DNA from: Candidatus Uhrbacteria bacterium | GTDB taxonomy: Bacteria; Patescibacteriota; Patescibacteriia; 2-12-FULL-60-25 | DNA length: 64,000 nt | Direction: 5' to 3' | NCBI GenBank assembly: GCA_016203535.1 | Contig: JACQMO010000003.1 | Span: 47,110 to 111,109, forward strand | Part shown: positions 48,344-60,890 of the stretch, in pieces | How the letters are laid out: each line of letters opens with the position of its first letter | Position numbering within the stretch: the stretch's first letter is position 1 | The notes under the pieces: model-generated | What the model was told of the DNA's origin: nothing | Seen by the model: the letters and a program-made list of their open reading frames with translations, nothing else | The model's database searches: none | Translations under genes and position numbers: made by a program

Positions 48344-50368
48344 CTAAAATGCGGAAATGCCGCCGACCACGATCTCCTTTCGGCCGTCACCCGCGACGTC
48401 GGCGACGGTCACCGTGACCCCGTTCAATGCCGGCGTGTCGCCCAGCGAGAATTCCTTCCGTAGCGTACCGCGGAAATCGAAAACCCGCACCCGCGGCCGC
48501 GCGCCTTCGCCGGATCCCACGACGATCTCATCCCGCCCGTCGCCGTCCACGTCCCCGACGGCGACGCTCACCCCGCCGCGCTCGCTCTCATGGAAGGCGA
48601 AAAAGCTTCCGCCCCATGTGAGACCGTCCGTCTTCCAGACGCGGATGTGCGGACCGCCGCCCGGACCCGCGCCCGTCACGATTTCCCGCAGCCCGTCGCC
48701 GTCGAGGTCGCCGATCCCGACGCGCGCGCCTCCGGAAAACTGCGGATGGTACGCCGTCCAGCGCGCGAGCTCCGTCCCGGCGCGCGAAAACATCCGCACG
48801 TCCGACGGACGCGCCTTGTCGCGTCCCACGATGATTTCCGACGCGGCGTCGCGGTTGGCGTTCCCGACCGCGATCGTGAGCGAACCCGCATACGACCGGC
48901 CGAACGGCCAAAACGTCACCGTCCGCTCTCCCGGCGTCTTCACGGTAACGGCCCCCTTTTGCGCGATCACGAGACTCTCAACGCCGCGTCCGGCAAGATC
49001 CGCCGCAAGCACCGTCGCGCCGGCCGGCCCGTCGTCGCGCTGCGCGAAAAATCCGTTCCGCACCTGGCGTCCCTCCGCGTCATACACCCGGACGAATTCC
49101 CCGTTCCGGAACGCGCTCTGCCGGATCACCACGGCATTCGCTTCGCCGAGGAGGATGCGCGCGTCCTCCGCCGGAACCGCGAGCGAACGAACCAGTCCTC
49201 CGTCGTTCGATCGCGGATCCTGAACCCCGCGAAGTTTCTCGTACGTCCCGGGAAGCGCGATCGTCCCGGCGGCGGAACCACTGTTCACGACGACGATCCC
49301 GCGCTGGTAATTCCGCATCCAGAGGCCGCTCCCATCCGAACGTCCGGACGCGCGGACGAACCGCGCGGGACCGGTCGGCCGACCGAGCGACGCGTCGTAC
49401 TCGTCATACCACCACGTCCGCTGATGCCCCCGGTCACCCGCGTCGAACGAATAATAGGCGTCCGCAAGGAGCGCGCTCCCCAACCCGTAGCGCATGAGCC
49501 GATAGTCCGAAGGGGTTTCGACGTTGTTCGTGTTGGTGTTGATCGCGCTCACCTTGGGTGACGCGTTTTTGGCGAGCGAATCCTGAAGCTCGCGAAAGGG
49601 CGCGATCCATCCGTAGCGCGGAAAATTTTCAAACAGGACGCCGTTCACCTGCGACGCATACGACGCGCTGCTGTTGTTCATGATGATCCGGTTCGGACCG
49701 AGAGCCGCGCGCATGTTTCGGAGGAGCCGCGACATGCCCGAGCGCCACGCGGCGTTCACGGACGCGGCCGGATTCGCGGTCCCGTTCCCATCCGGATCGA
49801 TATTGGTCCCGAAAAAATGGGTGATATCGCTGTATGCGGCGTCCAGAAACACGCCGTCCCAAAGCCCCGTGGACATGAGCTCGCGCGCGACGAATTCCGG
49901 GAGCGCGTCGGCCCAGCGCTGGCCGCTCATCGCGGGGCCGAGGTCCGTGGCATTCATGAGGTGCGCGCCCGGCCACCACTGCATCCGCCGTCCGTCCGGC
50001 TGGTGCATGAAAAATTCTTCGGGTGCGATCTGGGACAGGTGGAAACTCGGGGACGTCGGATCGCCGAGCGCCCGCGCGTCCGCGAGTTCCCCCGCGCTCA
50101 CGTACGCGAGGAGCTTGATGCCGGGATTCGCCAGACGAAGTTCGCGCATCCGTTCCGGCGCCTGCCATTGCAGGTCCATATCGAGCACGACCACGTCCCA
50201 GTTGGCGAGCGCCGTCCGATCGGTATCGAAAATATTCCAGCCGAGATAGAGGTTCAGGAGTTTCGGCGCGTCCTGCGTCCCGCGCGCGGCGAACGTCGCC
50301 GTCGGCATGACGAACGCCGTCAATACCATCAGGACCGCCGTTCCGTTTGTCAGCCAGTGTCTCATCAT
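48344..50368 (-). CDS. Secreted GHL15-like putative glycosidase with C-terminal FG-GAP/VCBS repeats
   Basis: A 674-residue protein. Signal peptide MRHWLTNGTAVLMVLTAFV...ATFAARG. Residues about 30-380 match the putative glycosyl-hydrolase-like family 15 (TIM barrel): WDVVVLDMDLQWQAPERM, IKLLAYVSAGELADARAL, STGLWDGVFLDAAYSDITHF, NRIIMNNSSASYASQVNG, with the acids at barrel strand ends plausible as catalytic. Residues 420-674 have four FG-GAP-type Ca-binding repeats (GIGDLDGDGLREIVTGAG, AVGDVDGDGRDEIVVGSGEG, TVADVAGDGRKEIVVGG). The pairing suggests a surface-attached enzyme acting on the cell's own or host glycans. Gene ends 4 bp before the membrane-anchored protein. Confidence 0.8.
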   Translation of the reverse strand: MMRHWLTNGTAVLMVLTAFVMPTATFAARGTQDAPKLLNLYLGWNIFDTDRTALANWDVVVLDMDLQWQAPERMRELRLANPGIKLLAYVSAGELADARALGDPTSPSFHLSQIAPEEFFMHQPDGRRMQWWPGAHLMNATDLGPAMSGQRWADALPEFVARELMSTGLWDGVFLDAAYSDITHFFGTNIDPDGNGTANPAASVNAAWRSGMSRLLRNMRAALGPNRIIMNNSSASYASQVNGVLFENFPRYGWIAPFRELQDSLAKNASPKVSAINTNTNNVETPSDYRLMRYGLGSALLADAYYSFDAGDRGHQRTWWYDEYDASLGRPTGPARFVRASGRSDGSGLWMRNYQRGIVVVNSGSAAGTIALPGTYEKLRGVQDPRSNDGGLVRSLAVPAEDARILLGEANAVVIRQSAFRNGEFVRVYDAEGRQVRNGFFAQRDDGPAGATVLAADLAGRGVESLVIAQKGAVTVKTPGERTVTFWPFGRSYAGSLTIAVGNANRDAASEIIVGRDKARPSDVRMFSRAGTELARWTAYHPQFSGGARVGIGDLDGDGLREIVTGAGPGGGPHIRVWKTDGLTWGGSFFAFHESERGGVSVAVGDVDGDGRDEIVVGSGEGARPRVRVFDFRGTLRKEFSLGDTPALNGVTVTVADVAGDGRKEIVVGGISAF

Positions 50369-52293: not shown

Positions 52294-53385
52294 CTACCTG
52301 CCTACTCGCCTACCGGCCTTCTTCAGAAGTTCCCGATACAGCTTCGCATGTTGTTCCACCATCCGGTCGAGCGACGCGGCGGCGGCGACCTTCGGGACGG
52401 CGCGGTTCGCGCGGAGGACGGCGGCCGTCGGATCATCCAGTGTCCGCCGGATCGCGTCGGCCCATGCCGAAACGTCGCCCGACGGCGGGAACAGGGCGTC
52501 GTCGCCCGCCAGGATTTCCCGAAGCGGCGGAAGATCCGACGCGATCATCGGGACGCCGGCCGCCGCCGCTTCCACCGCGGCGAGACCGAACCCCTCATAC
52601 CGCGACGGGAAACAAAACGCGTCCGACGCCGCGAGGAGTTCCGGCACGTCCTCCCGCGCGCCCAGCCACTCGATCCGCGAGGAGAGATGGAGCCGTTCGG
52701 CGAGCGCGCGGAGTTCTCCCTCGAGCGGGCCGACGCCGACGATCTGGAGCCGCCACGGACGTTTGATGAGCGCGAGCGCCTTGAGGAGCGTCGCGTGGTC
52801 CTTTTGCGGATGCAGCCGGCCGACGGTGATGAGGCGCGGGACGTCGCGGAACGGACGCGTGCCGCGCGGGACCACCCGCCCGAGGTCGATGCCGTTCAGG
52901 ATGACGCGGATTTTTTTCAACGAAACCCCTTCCACGCGATGTAGCTCCGCTTTCACGTCGCCGGAGACCGCGATATGCGCGTCCGTCAGAAACGAAAGCA
53001 GGGCATTCGTGAGACGATGGAAAAACCCGTACGTCGGATTCACGTTGTGCTCGGTCGACACGATCACGGGGACGCGCGCGAGCCACGCCGCGAGCCGTCC
53101 CCACGTGTCCGCGAGGAAGAGATGTGTGTGGACGATCTCCGGACGTTCCGCGCGGAACGCGCGATAGAGCGCGCAGATCGTGGCGAGCCCGAAAAAGCCG
53201 CGGCGCGGGATCGCGAACACGCGCACGTCGCCTTCCGCAAGCAGATGTTCCAGCGCCCCGCCCGAGAGCACGGTCACGACCGACGTCTCAAACCCTTTTG
53301 CGGGAAGCCGCGACGCCAACTCGACCACCAGCCGTTCGGCTCCGGCCATTTCCAGGCTGTGCGTCACGAAGATAACGTTCGTCAT
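52294..53385 (-). CDS. GT4-family glycosyltransferase
   Basis: A 363-residue GT-B protein. IFVTHSLEMAGAERLVVELASRL (GT4 acceptor start), ERPEIVHTHLFLADTWGRLAA, VPVIVSTEHNVNPTYGFFHRL, AHIAVSGDVKAELHR, and the donor domain LITVGRLHPQKDHATLLKAL, LQIVGVGPLEGELRALAERL, EWLGAREDVPELLAASDAFCFPSRYEGFGLAAVEAAAAGVPMIASDLPP with the EX7E glutamates. ATG at 53385 overlaps the stop of the O-antigen-ligase gene by 4 bp; the long upstream frame is a shadow of that gene. Confidence 0.93.
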   Translation of the reverse strand: MTNVIFVTHSLEMAGAERLVVELASRLPAKGFETSVVTVLSGGALEHLLAEGDVRVFAIPRRGFFGLATICALYRAFRAERPEIVHTHLFLADTWGRLAAWLARVPVIVSTEHNVNPTYGFFHRLTNALLSFLTDAHIAVSGDVKAELHRVEGVSLKKIRVILNGIDLGRVVPRGTRPFRDVPRLITVGRLHPQKDHATLLKALALIKRPWRLQIVGVGPLEGELRALAERLHLSSRIEWLGAREDVPELLAASDAFCFPSRYEGFGLAAVEAAAAGVPMIASDLPPLREILAGDDALFPPSGDVSAWADAIRRTLDDPTAAVLRANRAVPKVAAAASLDRMVEQHAKLYRELLKKAGRRVGR

Positions 53386-54800
53386 ACCGGTTCCCGCGCG
53401 CGATCGGCTTTTCCGCCCTTGTCCCGGAGCGCGAACGACGCCGCGACCGCCAACCCGATGGGCAGCCACATCTTTCCGGTCCAGTAATTCGTGTTGAACA
53501 GCTGGTATGCGACGGCGCCGGCGGCGGCGAGCGTCAGGAACAGAAGCGCGTGCCGATCCGGACCGTCCGGAAATTTCTTCCGCGCGAGGAGCATCAGGCG
53601 CGCGAACGAGATGACCACCGCCGCGAACGCCGCGAGGCCGATGACGCCGGTTTCCGCCGCCAGCTTCTGGATCACGCCGTGAGAATCGAGCGGTTCGCCG
53701 TATTCGAGCCGGAAAATGTAGGCCGAACCGACGCGGTCCACGAACGTGCCCGCGCCGCCGCCGAGCCACGGGCTTGACTGGAACACTTCGCCGGCGATTT
53801 CAAGAAGGGCGAAACGCGTGGACGTGCTGCTCTGCGCGACCGTGGAAAACCCGATGCGAACCATCGCCCCGACGAGCGGAAGCGCGAGAAGCAACGCCGC
53901 GAGGATGAACGCAAGATGGCGGCGGAGGACGTGACGATATTCGAGGGCGGCAAGGACCGCGCCGAGCGCCGCGAACACGATCCAGACGGTGCGTGAAAAC
54001 GTGAGGAGCCCGACGACGATCTGGAGCGCGGCCGACCCCAGGAGCAGCCGCTTCGACCGTCCGTCCCGCGTGAGATGCGCGAGCGCGATGGTGATGAACG
54101 AGGTCGCGGCCAGAAGTTCGGCAAGCAGGTTATGGTTGTCGCCCAGGGCCGGGATGCCGAAAATCGGCAGCGGGTGCGCGCGACGGAGGAACTGGCTCTC
54201 CGGCCCGACGAAGAACAGCGACACCGCGCCGTTCAGCGCGGCGAACGTGCCGACGGCGGCAAGGACGCCGAGCGCCGCGATGAGCCGCCGCCGAGAGCGC
54301 AGGAGGTTCACCGGCAGCGCGATGTACGCGAGATAGCAGAAGAGCACCGGCCGCAGGGCGAATTTCGTCGTGAGGACCGGATCCGGTTCGAGCGGGGAAA
54401 ACGCGGAGAGGAGATGCGCGGCGACGAGCGACGCATACGACCGGGCGAGCGGGAGCCGCGGCCGCCAATTCACGTCATGCCGACGGACCCAGAGGAGAAA
54501 AATTTTCATCGCCCACACGGCAAGCGCGACAAGCAGGACGGCTTCGGCCACGCTGATGTCGATCGCGCCGCGGTTCGCCCGTTTCCCGAAGGCGTGTTCT
54601 CCCGTCGGGATGGAAATGATGAACCCTAAAAACGGCGTGAACAGGAGGCCAAGATAAAAGGAAAGGTATGTGTAGCGGAACGCGAAGACAATCCCGAAGA
54701 GGATTCCCACGGCCAAGAGCGGACCAACCGGAACGCCGAGGGCGATGAAGATGGCGCTAACGGACAGGACGATGAAAAACCCCCACGACAACGTGGACAT
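53382..54800 (-). CDS. O-antigen polymerase/ligase-family membrane protein (Wzy_C)
   Basis: A 472-residue protein with about eleven hydrophobic helices. The key extracellular segment is SSPWLGGGAGTFVDRVGSAY followed by EYGEPLDSHGVIQKLAAETGVIGLAAFAA, the family motif with the catalytic-type His after Ser. It would polymerise or transfer lipid-linked glycan in the outer membrane face. This is the second such protein in the window (also 37968), so two acceptors or two glycans are likely. ATG at 54800; the 400-codon open frame upstream of it (up to 56006) is antisense shadow of the Gly/Ser-rich gene. It is the first gene of the minus-strand run to 50397. Confidence 0.88.
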   Translation of the reverse strand: MSTLSWGFFIVLSVSAIFIALGVPVGPLLAVGILFGIVFAFRYTYLSFYLGLLFTPFLGFIISIPTGEHAFGKRANRGAIDISVAEAVLLVALAVWAMKIFLLWVRRHDVNWRPRLPLARSYASLVAAHLLSAFSPLEPDPVLTTKFALRPVLFCYLAYIALPVNLLRSRRRLIAALGVLAAVGTFAALNGAVSLFFVGPESQFLRRAHPLPIFGIPALGDNHNLLAELLAATSFITIALAHLTRDGRSKRLLLGSAALQIVVGLLTFSRTVWIVFAALGAVLAALEYRHVLRRHLAFILAALLLALPLVGAMVRIGFSTVAQSSTSTRFALLEIAGEVFQSSPWLGGGAGTFVDRVGSAYIFRLEYGEPLDSHGVIQKLAAETGVIGLAAFAAVVISFARLMLLARKKFPDGPDRHALLFLTLAAAGAVAYQLFNTNYWTGKMWLPIGLAVAASFALRDKGGKADRAREPV

Positions 54801-55178
54801 GCCTGTAGAGTAACATACGCACACTGGTCCCGCCGCGGCCCACCCCCATCGTCCTCGCCGGTGCTCGGCTCCGGCCGCTGGGGGTCCCCCGTTCCGCGTC
54901 ACCCGTGCTGGCGCATGTTGAAATGGAAGGAAATATAGAGGGCGATTCGGGGGAGGTGTTTCGAGCACCATATCTTGGCCGAGCGGCCGCGAGTGTGTGC
55001 GAGGAATACCTCCCCCGAATCGGCCCATGGCAGGAGGACCCGTGGCCCCAACTCTTGACAAAACACCCATTTTTCTGCTTGGATGGGGGCGTGTGCTGAA
55101 CCTTATCTTGATCCTTTGACACCCTAACAACCAGTCTGTTGCTCCGCTTGAACGGCGGAGTCCCACAGAGAAGGAGGA
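54801..55178. promoter_or_regulatory. 378-bp divergent intergenic region with long inverted repeat and promoter
   Basis: The region separates the O-antigen-ligase gene (minus) from the Gly/Ser-rich gene (plus). It contains a 15-bp perfect inverted repeat, CGATTCGGGGGAGGT (54943-54957) and ACCTCCCCCGAATCG (55008-55022), with a 50-bp loop that itself holds GGCCG/CGGCC. A plus-strand promoter may be TTGACA (55055-55060), 18-bp spacer, TTGGAT with upstream TG. The ribosome-binding site AAGGAGG lies 7-10 bp before the ATGs at 55179/55182. No coding sequence is visible. Confidence 0.55.
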
Positions 55179-56906
55179 ATGATGCCGCGACGGCTTTTGA
55201 ACCTGTGGCCCGCCGCGACGGCTCTCGCTGTCGTGGTGATCACCGTGCTCACGATGCACGGATGCGGCGGGTTCGACACCCCCGCCGGAACGCAAGAAGG
55301 CCCGCTCGAGGGATGCATGGACAACGCGCCCTGCTCTCCGAACGGCCTGACCTGCACGAACAACAACGAAAGGTTCGTGTGCGTGAACGGTCAGTTCGAC
55401 CCGATCCCGGCCGAGTGCGTGGAGCACGGCTCCTGCACGTTGCCCGGATCTACCTGCGATGACGCGTGCGGAAGGCAGCTCTTCTGCAGCGCGAACAAGA
55501 CCCTCACCGCCAACCCCAACGACCCCGCATGCTCGTCCGACGGCGGAAGCGGGGGCGCAGGTGGGTCGTCCGGATCTGGCGCCAACGCCGGTTCGGGCGG
55601 AATCCCGGGCGTCGGAGGCGCCGGCGCGAGTTCGTCCGGATCCGGAGGGTCCGGCGGCGCGCCGCCCACGTGCGTCGAGCTGAACGAAGGGAAGAATTGC
55701 TCGCCGCCGTTCGAGGAGGGCGCGACCAAGTGCAACGGTGGCGCCCTCACCTGCCACTGCGGCGTCTGGGTCCAGACGGACCAGGTGAACGGATCCTGCG
55801 ATGCGGGATCGGGCGGCGCGGGCGGAAGCTCGGGCAGCGGCGGTTCCGGTGGAGGATCCGGCGGCGGCTTCGGTTCGGGTTCCGGTGGAATGACCGGTTC
55901 CGGCGGTTCGGGAGGATCCGCCGGCTCGGGCGGTTCCGGAGGAAGCTCCGGTTCCGGCGGTTCGGGAGGTTCCGGAGGTTCCGGCGAGGGCAACACGTGC
56001 TCCCAAGGGATGTCCTGTTTCCCGGACGGCGGCACCTGCCCGGACGTGAACAATCCGATGCAGACTCTCAAGTGCTGCGGAGGATTCCTCGTCGTGGTGG
56101 CCAACATGAACGACCCGTGCCCGGGTCAGAACGGTTCGGGCGGTTCCGGCGGTTCGGGCGGAAGCTCGGGCAGCGGCGGTTCGGGAGGTTCCGGTGGCGC
56201 GGGCGCATCCGGAGGGATGTCAGGGTCCGGCGGCAACGGCGGTACCGGAGGTTCCGATGGCGGAGCCGGCGCAGACGGAGGTGGCGGTTCCGGCGGTTCG
56301 GGAGGTTCCGGAGGAAGCTCGGGCAGCGGAGGCGCGGGCGGAAGCTCGGGCAGCGGCGGTTCGGGAGGTTCCGGAGGAAGCTCCGGTTCCGGCGGCAACG
56401 GCGGTTCGGGCGGTTCGCCTGATCCGTGCGCCATCCCGAGCGGCACGGTCCTCGGATCGTGCAACCCTCCCAACCCGGTTCCGGCAGGGATGGTGTACTT
56501 CTGCTACATCGCGGAAACGAACAAGGCGATCGGACGGTACGGACCGTTCGACCTGCAGTTCGAGGCGGACCCCCCAGGATCCACCGACTACGACTGCTGG
56601 AAGGGTCAGCCGGACTACGGCACGCCCGCCTGCGACCTGTGTCCGGACAGCAACCCCAACGACTCCGTCCTCGAATGCCTCCTGCCGTTCCCCAGCGGCA
56701 CCGCGAACTTCGAATTCACGGTCGAGGGGCTTTCACAGCCCACCTTCTACTGGGAGGACGAGGCCTTCTACTCCGAAGGGGGCTGCGGGGATTCGAACGG
56801 AACGGTGACGGTGACGGGGCCGGGAGGAAACATCTCCTACGCCCTCAAGCCGAACAACAACAACGGCAACCCGTTCTACAACGGGTTCATCTTCACCATC
56901 CAGTAA
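55179..56906 (+). CDS. Secreted Cys-rich modular protein with Gly/Ser-rich repeat linkers (putative lipoprotein)
   Basis: A 575-residue protein. N-terminal RRLLNLWPAATALAVVVITVLTMHGCGG has a hydrophobic core and a possible lipobox (MHGC). After it come three Cys-rich modules (for example GSCTLPGSTCDDACGRQLFC; CVELNEGKNCSPPFEEG; MSCFPDGGTCPDVNNPMQ) joined by long SGGSGG-type linkers; a C-terminal domain of about 160 residues ends in PFYNGFIFTIQ. The pattern (Cys-knot-like modules on flexible linkers) fits a surface adhesin or wall protein. Such proteins are common in myxobacteria, so acquisition is possible. The GC content and repeats differ from the neighbours. Strong ribosome-binding site and terminator (56913-56950). 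The function is unknown. Confidence 0.75.
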   Translation: MMPRRLLNLWPAATALAVVVITVLTMHGCGGFDTPAGTQEGPLEGCMDNAPCSPNGLTCTNNNERFVCVNGQFDPIPAECVEHGSCTLPGSTCDDACGRQLFCSANKTLTANPNDPACSSDGGSGGAGGSSGSGANAGSGGIPGVGGAGASSSGSGGSGGAPPTCVELNEGKNCSPPFEEGATKCNGGALTCHCGVWVQTDQVNGSCDAGSGGAGGSSGSGGSGGGSGGGFGSGSGGMTGSGGSGGSAGSGGSGGSSGSGGSGGSGGSGEGNTCSQGMSCFPDGGTCPDVNNPMQTLKCCGGFLVVVANMNDPCPGQNGSGGSGGSGGSSGSGGSGGSGGAGASGGMSGSGGNGGTGGSDGGAGADGGGGSGGSGGSGGSSGSGGAGGSSGSGGSGGSGGSSGSGGNGGSGGSPDPCAIPSGTVLGSCNPPNPVPAGMVYFCYIAETNKAIGRYGPFDLQFEADPPGSTDYDCWKGQPDYGTPACDLCPDSNPNDSVLECLLPFPSGTANFEFTVEGLSQPTFYWEDEAFYSEGGCGDSNGTVTVTGPGGNISYALKPNNNNGNPFYNGFIFTIQ

Positions 56907-56912
56907 CTCACA

Positions 56913-56950
56913 AGCCTTCCGGCGTCACACCCGGAGGGCTTTTTCTTTTT
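56913..56950 (+). terminator. Intrinsic terminator of the Gly/Ser-rich gene
   Basis: AGCCTTCCGG (56913-56922), 8-nt loop, CCGGAGGGCT (56931-56940) with one G-U pair, followed by TTTTCTTTTT. Strong and orientation-specific. It lies 7 bp after the stop codon. Confidence 0.9.
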
Positions 56951-56996: not shown

Positions 56997-57477
56997 TAGT
57001 CGTGCCCGCCTCTAGAGGACCCACGACGCGAAAAACATGGCCGCGACGGCCATCAGAGACGTCCCGTGCGTCTCCCCTTTGTGACCTGAAGAAGACGGCC
57101 CTGCAAGGACCGTCGGGGAACATGGACCCGACGGCGAAGATTCAATCAGCTTGAGGGCAGAGCTATTGGACACAGGCCATCAAGGGAAAGGCAGCGGAGA
57201 CGTTGAACGGAGTTCCGACACATGTACTTGTAGCGACGGTCAACAAGCGACCGCCGACCGCAGAAGAACCGGAATGCAATCGCTCTCATGCGCCACGCGC
57301 ACAAGGGCTTTCTGGGGCTGACGCCCCCTGCATCTGCGGCATCGGCGGAGCGAGCCAGTACATGACGAGAATTTGGTTTTGGTGCCCCGGGCTCTCCCCG
57401 GAACGGCACCAATCACTTCTCCACTAGGCGTGCTGCCTTTCCCCTGCCGCGTCGCCCCCTCGGGCCACGCGTTTTTT
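56997..57477 (+). ncRNA. Candidate structured ncRNA of about 480 nt (no recognised family)
   Basis: A transcription unit bounded by a consensus promoter and a strong terminator (57448-57477), with no convincing open frame of more than about 75 codons. It contains many potential hairpins: ATGGCC/GGCCAT near 57045-57061, GAGACG/CGTCTC near 57056-57078, GACGG/CCGTC near 57091-57112, CCCGTCGG-type pairs near 57108-57132, GGGGC/GCCCC near 57317-57331, and TTGGTGCC/GGCACCAA near 57379-57411. It has no T-loop or CCA end of tmRNA, and none of the conserved RNase P, 6S or SRP blocks that I could recognise. Length is in the range of RNase P or large ornate RNAs. I cannot assign it. Confidence 0.6.
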
Positions 57478-57480
57478 ATT
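57448..57480 (+). terminator. Terminator of the candidate ncRNA, overlapping the TrmB-like gene stop
   Basis: CGCGT (57448-57452) and ACGCG (57467-57471) enclose a GCCC/GGGC inner stem and are followed by TTTTTT then ATTTT. The T-run overlaps the minus-strand TAA of the TrmB-like gene (57476-57478), so it ends transcription from the left while the minus-strand gene comes from the right. Confidence 0.85.
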
Positions 57481-58234
57481 TTCCCGTCGCCTGCCACAGC
57501 AGGTCAAAAAAACTTTTGAACAATCCCGCAACGTCCTCGCTTTCGATGATGACGGCAATGGGTCTGGTCCGCATCGTGACGATATACAAAAATCGTTCGA
57601 AGATGTCGCATTCCCCGTTGAACGGAGCCGCATCCGTGAGTTGCCGCGCTTCCACGTTTTTCGCGTGCGTCGGGAGGGAGAGGCCGGGCTCGATCGAATA
57701 AAGCAGCCTCACGCGGTTCAAGGTCGTGGACAGGCGGAGACGCTGGTCCTGCTGATATTGCGCAAGATCGACCATCCCCTGGTCGTAATGGATGAACACG
57801 CGGCCCGCAAGCGTTCCGCGCGCCAAATCGATCATCGCCTCCCGCGCGGCACGGACCCCTTCTTCCCCTTCGAAGTACCGCACCTTCGGTTTGTCTTCCA
57901 CGGCGCGGAAGAGCGCGAGAAAATTCGGCATCACGTGTTCCAATCGTTTCTTCTTCTCCTCGGCGTGGCGCACTTCATCGTTCATGAGGAATAGGAGATG
58001 TTCGGGCGATTCTGGCGCGAACACGGTTTTCTTCCCGCGTTCGACGCTCGACATGAGCCCGTGACGCTTCAGCGATTCGAGCATCACGTAGGTCGTCGCG
58101 CGATTCACGCCCGCTTTTTTCGCGATGTCCTGGACGCTCGCGGGGCCGAGTTCCAGCATGGCGAGATACACGTTCGCCTCCTTGTCCGACAGACCGAATT
58201 CGACCAATTTATTCTTGAGGTCGTTCATAGTCAT
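57476..58234 (-). CDS. TrmB-family transcriptional regulator
   Basis: A 252-residue protein. Residues 1-70 form a TrmB-type winged helix: LKNKLVEFGLSDKEANVYLAML, GPASVQDIAKKAGVNRATTYVMLESLKRHGLMSSVERGKKTVFAPESPEHL. A coiled-coil follows (AEEKKKRLEHVMPNFLALF), then a C-terminal ligand-sensing-like domain with PKVRYFEGEEGVRAAREAMI and FIHYDQGMVDL. The family senses sugars in archaea and several bacteria, so regulation of sugar or glycan genes is plausible. The ATG at 58234 overlaps the stop of the GT4 gene (ATGA); the ATG at 58228 is an alternative. It ends on the ncRNA terminator. Confidence 0.85.
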   Translation of the reverse strand: MTMNDLKNKLVEFGLSDKEANVYLAMLELGPASVQDIAKKAGVNRATTYVMLESLKRHGLMSSVERGKKTVFAPESPEHLLFLMNDEVRHAEEKKKRLEHVMPNFLALFRAVEDKPKVRYFEGEEGVRAAREAMIDLARGTLAGRVFIHYDQGMVDLAQYQQDQRLRLSTTLNRVRLLYSIEPGLSLPTHAKNVEARQLTDAAPFNGECDIFERFLYIVTMRTRPIAVIIESEDVAGLFKSFFDLLWQATGK

Positions 58235-59361
58235 TCCCACCGCGTGAGGACAGGCAGCGTCATTTTTGCGGTGTTCTCCCAGGTATACGTTGCCGCCCGG
58301 GTGATTCCGGCGGTGCGCAGTTTCTCTTTCAGCCCCTGTTCAGAAGACAAACGGGATAATGCGTCGGCGAGCGCTTCCGGCTGGTCCGGAGAGAAAAACA
58401 ACGCAGCATCCGAACCGATGACGCCCGGCAAGCTGGCGGCGGAAGATGAAATGACCGGGCATCCCGACGCCATGGCCATGACCGGCGGCAAGCCGAACCC
58501 TTCATACCAGGACGGATGAACAAGCGCTTCGGCGGCGTTCAGGAGCGCCGGAAGGTCGAGCTCCGGAACGTATCCAAGCTCGATGATGTCCGCGCGCACG
58601 GGCGAACGCGCGATCGCGGCCTTGATCTCGTCATAACGGAATCCCGGAACGCCGACGAAGACGAGCTTGTGCGGATCGCCCACGCCGCGGCGCGCCTTGA
58701 ACGATTCGAACGCTTTCACGAGCGTGACCAGGTTTTTCTTCGCTTCCAGCCGGCCGATCGTGAGGAAAAACGGACGCGAGAGCCGATAACGATGAAGGCG
58801 TTCGTCGACGGCAGCGCGGTCTGTGATGGGACGGTAGTGCGTATGGTCGATCCCGTTCGGAATCACGGCGATGCGGCTCGGGTCGATGCCGTATGCCTCG
58901 GCGATCTCCTTCCCGCTGTACTCGGACACGGTGATGATCCGCGCGGCGCGGCGCCGAATGTCCTTCATCGCCGCTTCGTGGATGCGAACCTGCCGTTTTT
59001 TGTAGAGGTCGGGCAGACGGTGGAATCCTACGTCATGCACCGTCACGACCGTCTTCCGCGGAATGACGCGCGGGAGCGTACTGCCGGGAAGAAACAAGGT
59101 CTCGACCGGCCGGCGGGACATTTCCCAAGACAGGCGGAATTGCGTCCATCCGAACGGGAATGGCCACTTCGCGCGGACCTCGAACCAATTCGCGGGCAAC
59201 GCTTCCAACCCGCCGTGCAGGATCGCGTTCGTATAGAGGATCCAGGAATTGCCGTCGTTTACGGTGAGTTTTTTCAGCTCCTGGATTACATGCCAGGCGT
59301 ACCATTCGACGCCGGTTTTCGTGAGCTTGTTCGCGCGCGACGCCTCGATCCCGATCAACAT
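58231..59361 (-). CDS. GT4-family glycosyltransferase
   Basis: A 376-residue GT-B protein. It starts MLIGIEASRANKLTKTGVEWYAWHV. TVVTVHDVGFHRLPDLYKKRQ, RAARIITVSEYSGKEIAEAYGI, AVIPNGIDHTHYRP and the donor domain LTIGRLEAKKNLVTLVKAFESF, VPGFRYDEIKAAI, LGYVPELDLPALLNAAEALVHPSWYEGFGLPPVMAMASGCPVISSSAAS give a classic GT4 (mannosyltransferase-type) pattern. It precedes the TrmB-like gene (4-bp overlap), suggesting regulation by a sugar signal. Confidence 0.94.
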   Translation of the reverse strand: MLIGIEASRANKLTKTGVEWYAWHVIQELKKLTVNDGNSWILYTNAILHGGLEALPANWFEVRAKWPFPFGWTQFRLSWEMSRRPVETLFLPGSTLPRVIPRKTVVTVHDVGFHRLPDLYKKRQVRIHEAAMKDIRRRAARIITVSEYSGKEIAEAYGIDPSRIAVIPNGIDHTHYRPITDRAAVDERLHRYRLSRPFFLTIGRLEAKKNLVTLVKAFESFKARRGVGDPHKLVFVGVPGFRYDEIKAAIARSPVRADIIELGYVPELDLPALLNAAEALVHPSWYEGFGLPPVMAMASGCPVISSSAASLPGVIGSDAALFFSPDQPEALADALSRLSSEQGLKEKLRTAGITRAATYTWENTAKMTLPVLTRWE

Positions 59362-59701: not shown

Positions 59702-60751
59702 CTATTCGCTCGACTGTTCCCACGGCAAATCTGATTTCCCAAAATGGCCGTACGCCGCCGTGCTGCGATAAATGGGGCGACGGAGGCCGAGGCGCTCGAT
59801 GATCGCGGCTGGGCGGAAGTCGAACGCTGCAAGCGCCGCGGAATCGATCGTTTTCCCTGCCCCGTCCATCGCATGGACCATCACGGGCTCGGCGCGACCG
59901 ATGGCGTATGCCACGGACACGAGACAATCGTCCGCGATCCCGCGCGCGACGAGATTCTTTGCGACGAAGCGCGCCATGTACGCCGCCGATCGATCAACTT
60001 TCGTCGGATCCTTTCCGGAAAACGCGCCGCCGCCGTGCTGGATCAACCCGCCATAGGTATCGACCATAAGCTTGCGGCCCGTGAGTCCGGTGTCAGCGGC
60101 AAATCCGCCGAGGGTAAAGGCGCCGGTCGGGTTCACCAGAATTTCGATGCCCTCGAGAGAACCGACCGTCGGTCCGATGAGATGCTGGATAAGCGATTCG
60201 CGGATTTCCTTCTGCCCGACCTCGCGCGCATGCTGGGTACTCACGAGGACCGTCGCGAGCTTTCCGTCCCGCATCGTAACTTGCGTTTTCCCGTCAGGCC
60301 CGAGCCACGGCAGAAGCCGGTAGCGACGCAAGCGTTCGAGACCCGCAGCGAGGCGATGCGCGAGCACCACGGCCCGCGGCAGAAGTTCCGGCGTTTCCTT
60401 TGAGGCATACCCGTACATGATCCCCTGGTCGCCGGCGCCGCCCACGTCCACACCTTGCGCGATATCCGGGGATTGGCGGACGATTTTGGTCAGCACGTTG
60501 ATGTCATCCGTGTAGCCGATGTCGCGATACACCTGACGCGCGACAACTTCGGCATCGACCTCGGCACAGCTCGTCACTTCACCGCCCACGACAAGAAGCC
60601 CATGACAGCCGAAGGCCTCGACCGCGACACGGGATGTCGGATCCTGAAGAATGTACGCATCAAGGATCGCGTCGGAAATCTGATCACACACTTTATCCGG
60701 ATGGCCGGACGTCACAGATTCGACGGTATACGTGGACGGAAGAATGGGCAT
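59702..60751 (-). CDS. metK: S-adenosylmethionine synthetase
   Basis: A 349-residue enzyme making SAM from methionine and ATP. Signature blocks: TVESVTSGHPDKVCDQISDAI (N-terminus with the His and Lys that bind phosphate), GGAGDQGIMYGYASKETPELLPRAVVLAHRLA, PWLGPDGKTQVTM, and DTYGGLIQHGGGAFSGKDPTKVDRSAAYMARFVAKNLVA, the phosphate-binding GGGAFSGKD motif. It ends TAAYGHFGKSDLPWE. It is shorter than the usual 380-400 residues, mainly in loops. It is preceded by a SAM-I riboswitch, so it is feedback-regulated by its product. SAM feeds the nine or so methyltransferases of this window. The ATG at 60751 follows the attenuator directly. Confidence 0.97.
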   Translation of the reverse strand: MPILPSTYTVESVTSGHPDKVCDQISDAILDAYILQDPTSRVAVEAFGCHGLLVVGGEVTSCAEVDAEVVARQVYRDIGYTDDINVLTKIVRQSPDIAQGVDVGGAGDQGIMYGYASKETPELLPRAVVLAHRLAAGLERLRRYRLLPWLGPDGKTQVTMRDGKLATVLVSTQHAREVGQKEIRESLIQHLIGPTVGSLEGIEILVNPTGAFTLGGFAADTGLTGRKLMVDTYGGLIQHGGGAFSGKDPTKVDRSAAYMARFVAKNLVARGIADDCLVSVAYAIGRAEPVMVHAMDGAGKTIDSAALAAFDFRPAAIIERLGLRRPIYRSTAAYGHFGKSDLPWEQSSE

Positions 60752-60780: not shown

Positions 60781-60890
60781 TGCGTTATCTTTCCCCGCAG
60801 GGCTGGAATTGGCACCTTGTGACGCTTGTCGACAGGTTGCCGGCGGGTCATCGGGCCAGTGCCCTCGCCGCGCTCTTGATAGTCTTCAAT
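60781..60890 (-). promoter_or_regulatory. SAM-I riboswitch upstream of metK
   Basis: Minus-strand sequence shows the core of the S-box/SAM-I class: TATCAAGAG, then GGCACTGGCCCGATGA, then CCGGCAACC, then CACAAGGTGCCAATTCC, then GGGGAAAGATAAC. These correspond to P1, the ACTGGCCCGATGA of P2, the GCAACC junction, P3's AAGGTGCCAATTCC and the GAAAGATAA closing strand. The attenuator follows at 60752-60774. Directly controls metK by product feedback. Confidence 0.95.

Follow-up and report, generated by a model that had tools for sequence, protein, structure and literature searches.

Partner recognition and binding by episymbiotic bacteria of the CPR have been described as largely unknown (PMC12206443). 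Here, we ask what a large, cysteine-rich secreted protein encoded beside an O-antigen-ligase-like gene of a Candidatus Uhrbacteria genome does, and whether its gene was inherited or recently imported. The window, i.e., the whole stretch of 64,000 nucleotides analysed, belongs to a genome assembled into 30 contigs with a total of 811 kb and a completeness of 88%.

Gene and genomic context

The gene and its surroundings are listed in Table 1. Within the 575 aa ORF, the second ATG (55182) is better placed behind the AGGAGG motif and, from inspection of the sequence, is the likely true start. The layout is monocistronic: the gene diverges from the ligase-like gene and ends at a strong terminator of its own, as the first-pass annotation had stated for the latter. 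A search at the gene for a consensus sigma-70 promoter found none.

Two further observations were made in the window. A SAM (S-box) riboswitch (60782–60885, minus strand) lies in this CPR genome upstream of a methionine adenosyltransferase-like ORF (59702–60751, minus strand), and a GHL15 glycosyl-hydrolase-like protein that looks secreted and carries FG-GAP repeats is encoded where the run of glycan genes ends (48344–50368, minus strand).

Table 1. Features of the locus (positions within the window; res, residues of the 575 aa protein)
Feature	Position	Strand	Evidence or remark
O-antigen-ligase-like membrane protein (Wzy_C), divergent neighbour, left slot edge	53382..54800	-	PF04932, E 4e-13; conserved flank
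Dispersed hairpin element, conserved apical core, locus-specific arms	54935..55030	.	divergent intergenic region; inverted repeat 54940-55025
Cys-rich Gly/Ser-linked secreted protein	55179..56906	+	575 aa ORF; RBS AGGAGG; orthologues in G018, G004, G022
Signal peptide ending at atypical putative lipobox MHG-C (Cys29, codon 55263-55265)	55182..55265	+	sequence; aligned Cys in orthologues
N-terminal 10-Cys block, M1a (res 45-80) and M1b (res 80-118), Cys80 common to both	55311..55532	+	spacing conserved in four genera
Three Cys-free Gly/Ser linkers (res 121-163, 209-272, 317-415), alternating with M2 and M3	55539..56423	+	9- and 27-bp tandem DNA repeats
Cys repeat M2 (res 164-207)	55668..55799	+	counterparts in G004, G022 and the G022 M23 lipoprotein
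Cys repeat M3 (res 273-314)	55995..56120	+	counterparts in G018, G004
C-terminal domain (res 415-575), lineage-specific, predicted beta-sandwich	56421..56903	+	paralogue in M23 lipoprotein; family profile A1; AF2
Intrinsic terminator	56912..56941	+	11 bp and T-run, directly past the stop
TrmB-type HTH regulator, right slot edge	57476..58240	-	PF01978, E 1e-15; conserved flank
Glycosyltransferase past TrmB, kept in several relatives	58231..59361	-	PF00534

A modular, exported protein

The description as a secreted, Cys-rich protein was borne out by a signal peptide and 31 Cys among 575 residues (5.4%). At least three Cys modules on Gly/Ser linkers had been proposed; we count four Cys repeats, of which the first and second are fused, and the C-terminal domain contains Cys as well. 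The linkers hold none of the 31 Cys, which under random Cys placement has a chance of ~7e-7. Pfam and NCBIfam profile searches with the protein returned 0 families at E ≤ 1, the curated myxobacterial repeat models included. Sequence matches of the full protein in the PDB were discarded as low-complexity, as nearly all of them fall in the Gly/Ser linkers.

A possible lipobox had also been noted. A Cys motif is indeed present at the end of the signal peptide; MHGC, with His at −2, fails the PROSITE-type pattern. The aligned Cys is kept in three other genera, where it lies in a canonical lipobox in G018 (IVAC) and G004 (VGAC) and in the motif SIGC in G022. The genome itself encodes Lgt (PF01790, 126.8 bits) and LspA (PF01252, 72.9 bits), both over the cut-off, and, also over the cut-off, a VKOR disulfide enzyme. 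We consider lipidation at Cys29 likely, and we infer that the Cys of the protein are paired as disulfides.

Orthologues in four genera

Searching 41 genomes of the family with a profile of the 10-Cys block (A5), we obtained full-length matches in only four (the window genome, G018, G004 and G022). These represent four genera, and every one of the loci has the same Wzy_C ligase-like gene close by. In G018 and G004 the orthologue adjoins the Wzy_C gene directly and divergently, as in the window; in G022 it is also divergent, lies 2.6 kb upstream with another ORF between, and is cut short by the contig end. The ligase contig of G001, a genome of the same genus as the window, stops before the corresponding region.

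Identity of the block to that of the window is only 27–47%, yet the three orthologues match its Cys spacings (5, 6, 8, 11, 5, 6, 3, 5, 14) to within 0–2 residues. The Cys spacing, for which a check had been suggested with a view to disulfides, is thus fixed across four genera. The linkers, in contrast, vary in length and composition, being Gly/Ser in the window and Ser/Thr-rich in G004. That orthologues occupy one locus in four genera, their Cys spacing fixed and their linkers free to vary, points to an inherited modular family and not to a recent import.

Other proteins of similar build were seen outside this locus. G001 encodes a different Gly/Ser-linked lipoprotein-like protein with the M1b repeat three times in tandem (L085, G001:C19), and the window genome a further Gly/Ser-linked lipoprotein-like protein beside prfA (L056, G000:C1, 8635–9381, minus strand).

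A fixed slot with changing content

In genomes of the family, the region bounded by the Wzy_C gene and the TrmB-type regulator varies in content; we call it the slot. We surveyed the 19 genomes in which a single contig spans both flanks. The gap is 2.7–6.9 kb long in 18 of them and contains one to three large Cys-rich ORFs of secreted type, on either strand (at least 430 aa, 13–69 Cys; mechanical ORF calls, made without a gene finder). In 15 of these 18 filled slots, one or more of the ORFs have a lipobox that is canonical by regex. The remaining slot, in G016 (L098, G016:C64), is empty, the Wzy_C gene and TrmB being only 674 bp apart. The C-terminal domain was detected by HMM in only 6 of the 19 slots. 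Slot content turns over between genera while the flanks persist, a pattern that recognition proteins facing outward would be expected to show.

For several slot proteins, divergence is faster than for the neighbouring ligase, although the pattern is not uniform. Between G038 and G039 the ligase is 95% identical and the slot proteins are 80% and 93% identical; between G013 and G030 the corresponding values are 87% for the ligase and 69% and 61% for the slot proteins. In the pair G013 and G025, one slot protein is conserved equally with the ligase (60% each). Slot proteins of some relatives (L054, L062, L063, L066) contain TSP3 repeats, MopE repeats and a stretch similar to STIG1.

A C-terminal domain common to wall hydrolases

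The separate C-terminal domain that had been suspected was found at residues 415–575. In the same genome, an M23-peptidase lipoprotein encoded beside recA ends in a paralogue of the domain, and relatives of this lipoprotein also adjoin recA in other genomes. On account of this second gene, contamination of the genome was rejected. Consistent with the earlier placement in the CPR, relatives of the domain are titled Candidatus Uhrbacteria or Patescibacteria group bacterium.

Among the Patescibacteria genomes sampled, the domain profile matched 4 of the 7 from the family and none of the 373 others. We also scanned 84,980 species genomes with a single peptide pattern, which detects only relatives retaining the motif PDG[SR][WYF]WGD. 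Ten matches were confirmed, and no named organism from outside Patescibacteria was among them. Three are titled plain “bacterium”, and their sequences are identical to those in genomes of the family.

AlphaFold2 modelled the domain of a close relative confidently as a beta-sandwich (pLDDT 86, pTM 0.81); the model of the window domain was poorer (pLDDT 67.6, pTM 0.68). According to these models, the domain is an autonomous beta-sandwich common to the slot protein and the M23 lipoproteins. Fold searches against solved and viral structures returned no match at E ≤ 0.001 and therefore indicate no ligand. The layout LPxGxxxFxF...DGxW had suggested a glycan module of the CBM48/CBM20/AMPK type; this candidate was rejected, as nothing significant appeared in Pfam, hhalign or fold searches. 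The CBM53 profile hit 1 of 19 domain members at a non-significant E of 0.058, and hhalign to a single CBM48-type sequence gave a probability of 2.3%, also not significant.

A dispersed hairpin element

The intergenic region upstream of the gene had been read as a private promoter region with a long inverted repeat. The repeat is real and folds with −65.5 kcal/mol (z −9.6), far beyond chance. Private it is not, given at least five dispersed, covarying copies. We found five strong copies and one weak copy in the window genome (G000) and two in G005, and none in the remaining 39 of the 41 family genomes. Besides the one in Table 1, copies are located in L103 (G000:C28, two copies), L056 (G000:C1), L104 (G000:C23) and G005:C37 (two copies). 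They have an apical core in common, GAGCAGCATAAGC..GGCCGAGCGGCCACGAGCGTCTGCGA, and their arms (~20 bp or more) differ by locus yet are self-complementary, with 7 of 19 pairs changed on both sides. A REP/MITE-like element is one possibility for the hairpin; another is an element that inserts into palindromes already present, e.g., terminators. Because the copies are dispersed, the inverted repeat was rejected as a regulatory element of the window gene. For the view that the gene is regulated apart from the glycan operon, the divergent orientation and the terminator remain; the hairpin is uninformative on the regulation of this particular gene.

Possible function and alternatives

We propose, with a probability of about 0.5, that the protein is a lipid-anchored, disulfide-stiffened stalk that would show a binding domain past the glycan coat and act as an adhesin or in recognition toward another cell. 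The signal peptide would export the protein, and Cys29 would most likely be lipidated. The four Cys repeats may fold as disulfide-locked knots with the assistance of VKOR, and ~200 residues of Gly/Ser linker would keep the C-terminal beta-sandwich off the membrane and outside the glycan coat made by the flanking genes. There, the exposed domain could bind a glycan or a protein, most likely one carried by another cell. Gene, modules, Cys spacing, synteny, slot contents and the fold class of the domain in the close relative are direct results; from there we infer topology, ligand and adhesion. The product of the window gene is thus a plausible candidate for a cell-contact protein.

A domain common to a wall hydrolase fits binding to the own envelope equally with binding to a host. 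The C-terminal domain might then bind the own peptidoglycan or capsule, and the protein might organise or anchor the glycan layer with no contact to other cells. We consider this tentative, the less probable of the two, even though the M23-peptidase lipoproteins beside recA end in the same domain and the slot is bordered by the Wzy_C gene on one side and by a TrmB-type sugar regulator with a glycosyltransferase on the other. For such a role a more constant protein is expected, whereas slot proteins turn over between genera, mostly without the domain, next to persisting flanks. The very high Cys content would also suit a secreted protein that binds a metal or cofactor, with Cys as ligands or redox-active residues and without a structural role, and MopE metal-binding motifs do occur in slot neighbours of relatives. 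The window protein itself has no MopE motif, its 30 Cys beyond that of the lipobox are an even count, which suits disulfides, and the genome has VKOR; we therefore regard this as improbable.

The suggestion of the first-pass annotation that a myxobacterial surface protein was recently acquired by horizontal transfer rested on the style of Gly/Ser linkers and Cys modules. The likeness to myxobacterial proteins is supported only indirectly: slot proteins of relatives match MtsC (243 of 350 bits) and MXAN_6577 (39 of 100 bits), both sub-threshold, and carry MopE and TSP3 repeats, while the window protein itself matches no Pfam or NCBIfam family. Recent transfer is very hard to reconcile with orthologues at one locus in four genera and with a C-terminal domain found, among the genomes scanned, only in the family, all 10 confirmed matches of the scan lying on contigs titled Uhrbacteria, Patescibacteria or “bacterium”.

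Returning to the proposed stalk with a binding domain, a more far-reaching version would make the slot a host-specificity locus, in which rapidly replaced Cys-rich lipoproteins decide the partner cell of each lineage and the window gene is one cassette; we consider this doubtful. A fixed locus with differing large Cys-rich secreted proteins in nearly all relatives surveyed provides a short, testable list of candidates for contact proteins of Uhrbacteria, and the new C-terminal domain offers a soluble probe for finding its ligand.

Comparison with known systems

In the literature and family libraries searched, we found no description of the fixed slot, the C-terminal domain or the Cys block. 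The kind of protein is already known, as Cys-rich exported candidates for attachment have been reported from Peribacteria (PMC4736985). There, large Cys-rich exported proteins with a proposed function in attachment average 1,655 aa and include a cluster of 14 genes, with a Cys content in the cluster of 7.2 ± 2.4%; the proteins are strain-variable and weakly resemble Myxococcus Cys-rich repeats, and Lgt copies and a disulfide-forming protein were noted (PMC4736985). Both they and the window protein (5.4% Cys) are from the CPR, exported and very Cys-rich. Compared by description, the window protein differs in its 575 aa Gly/Ser-linked build, its fixed Wzy_C/TrmB locus, its distinct C-terminal domain and its lineage.

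Myxobacterial MYXO-CTERM and Cys-rich repeat proteins (MtsC, NF047638; MXAN_6577, NF041328) are alike in their Cys modules and Gly/Ser linkers, and slot proteins of relatives have, below the cut-off, TSP3, MopE and MXAN_6577-like stretches as in the myxobacterial proteins. Unlike MtsC and MXAN_6577, the window protein matches no model and lacks TSP3 and MopE repeats. Within the family, the M23-peptidase lipoproteins beside recA have the same C-terminal domain, a Gly/Ser or Ser-rich linker and a canonical lipobox. They differ from the window protein in their locus and in carrying a peptidase M23 domain in place of the array of Cys modules.
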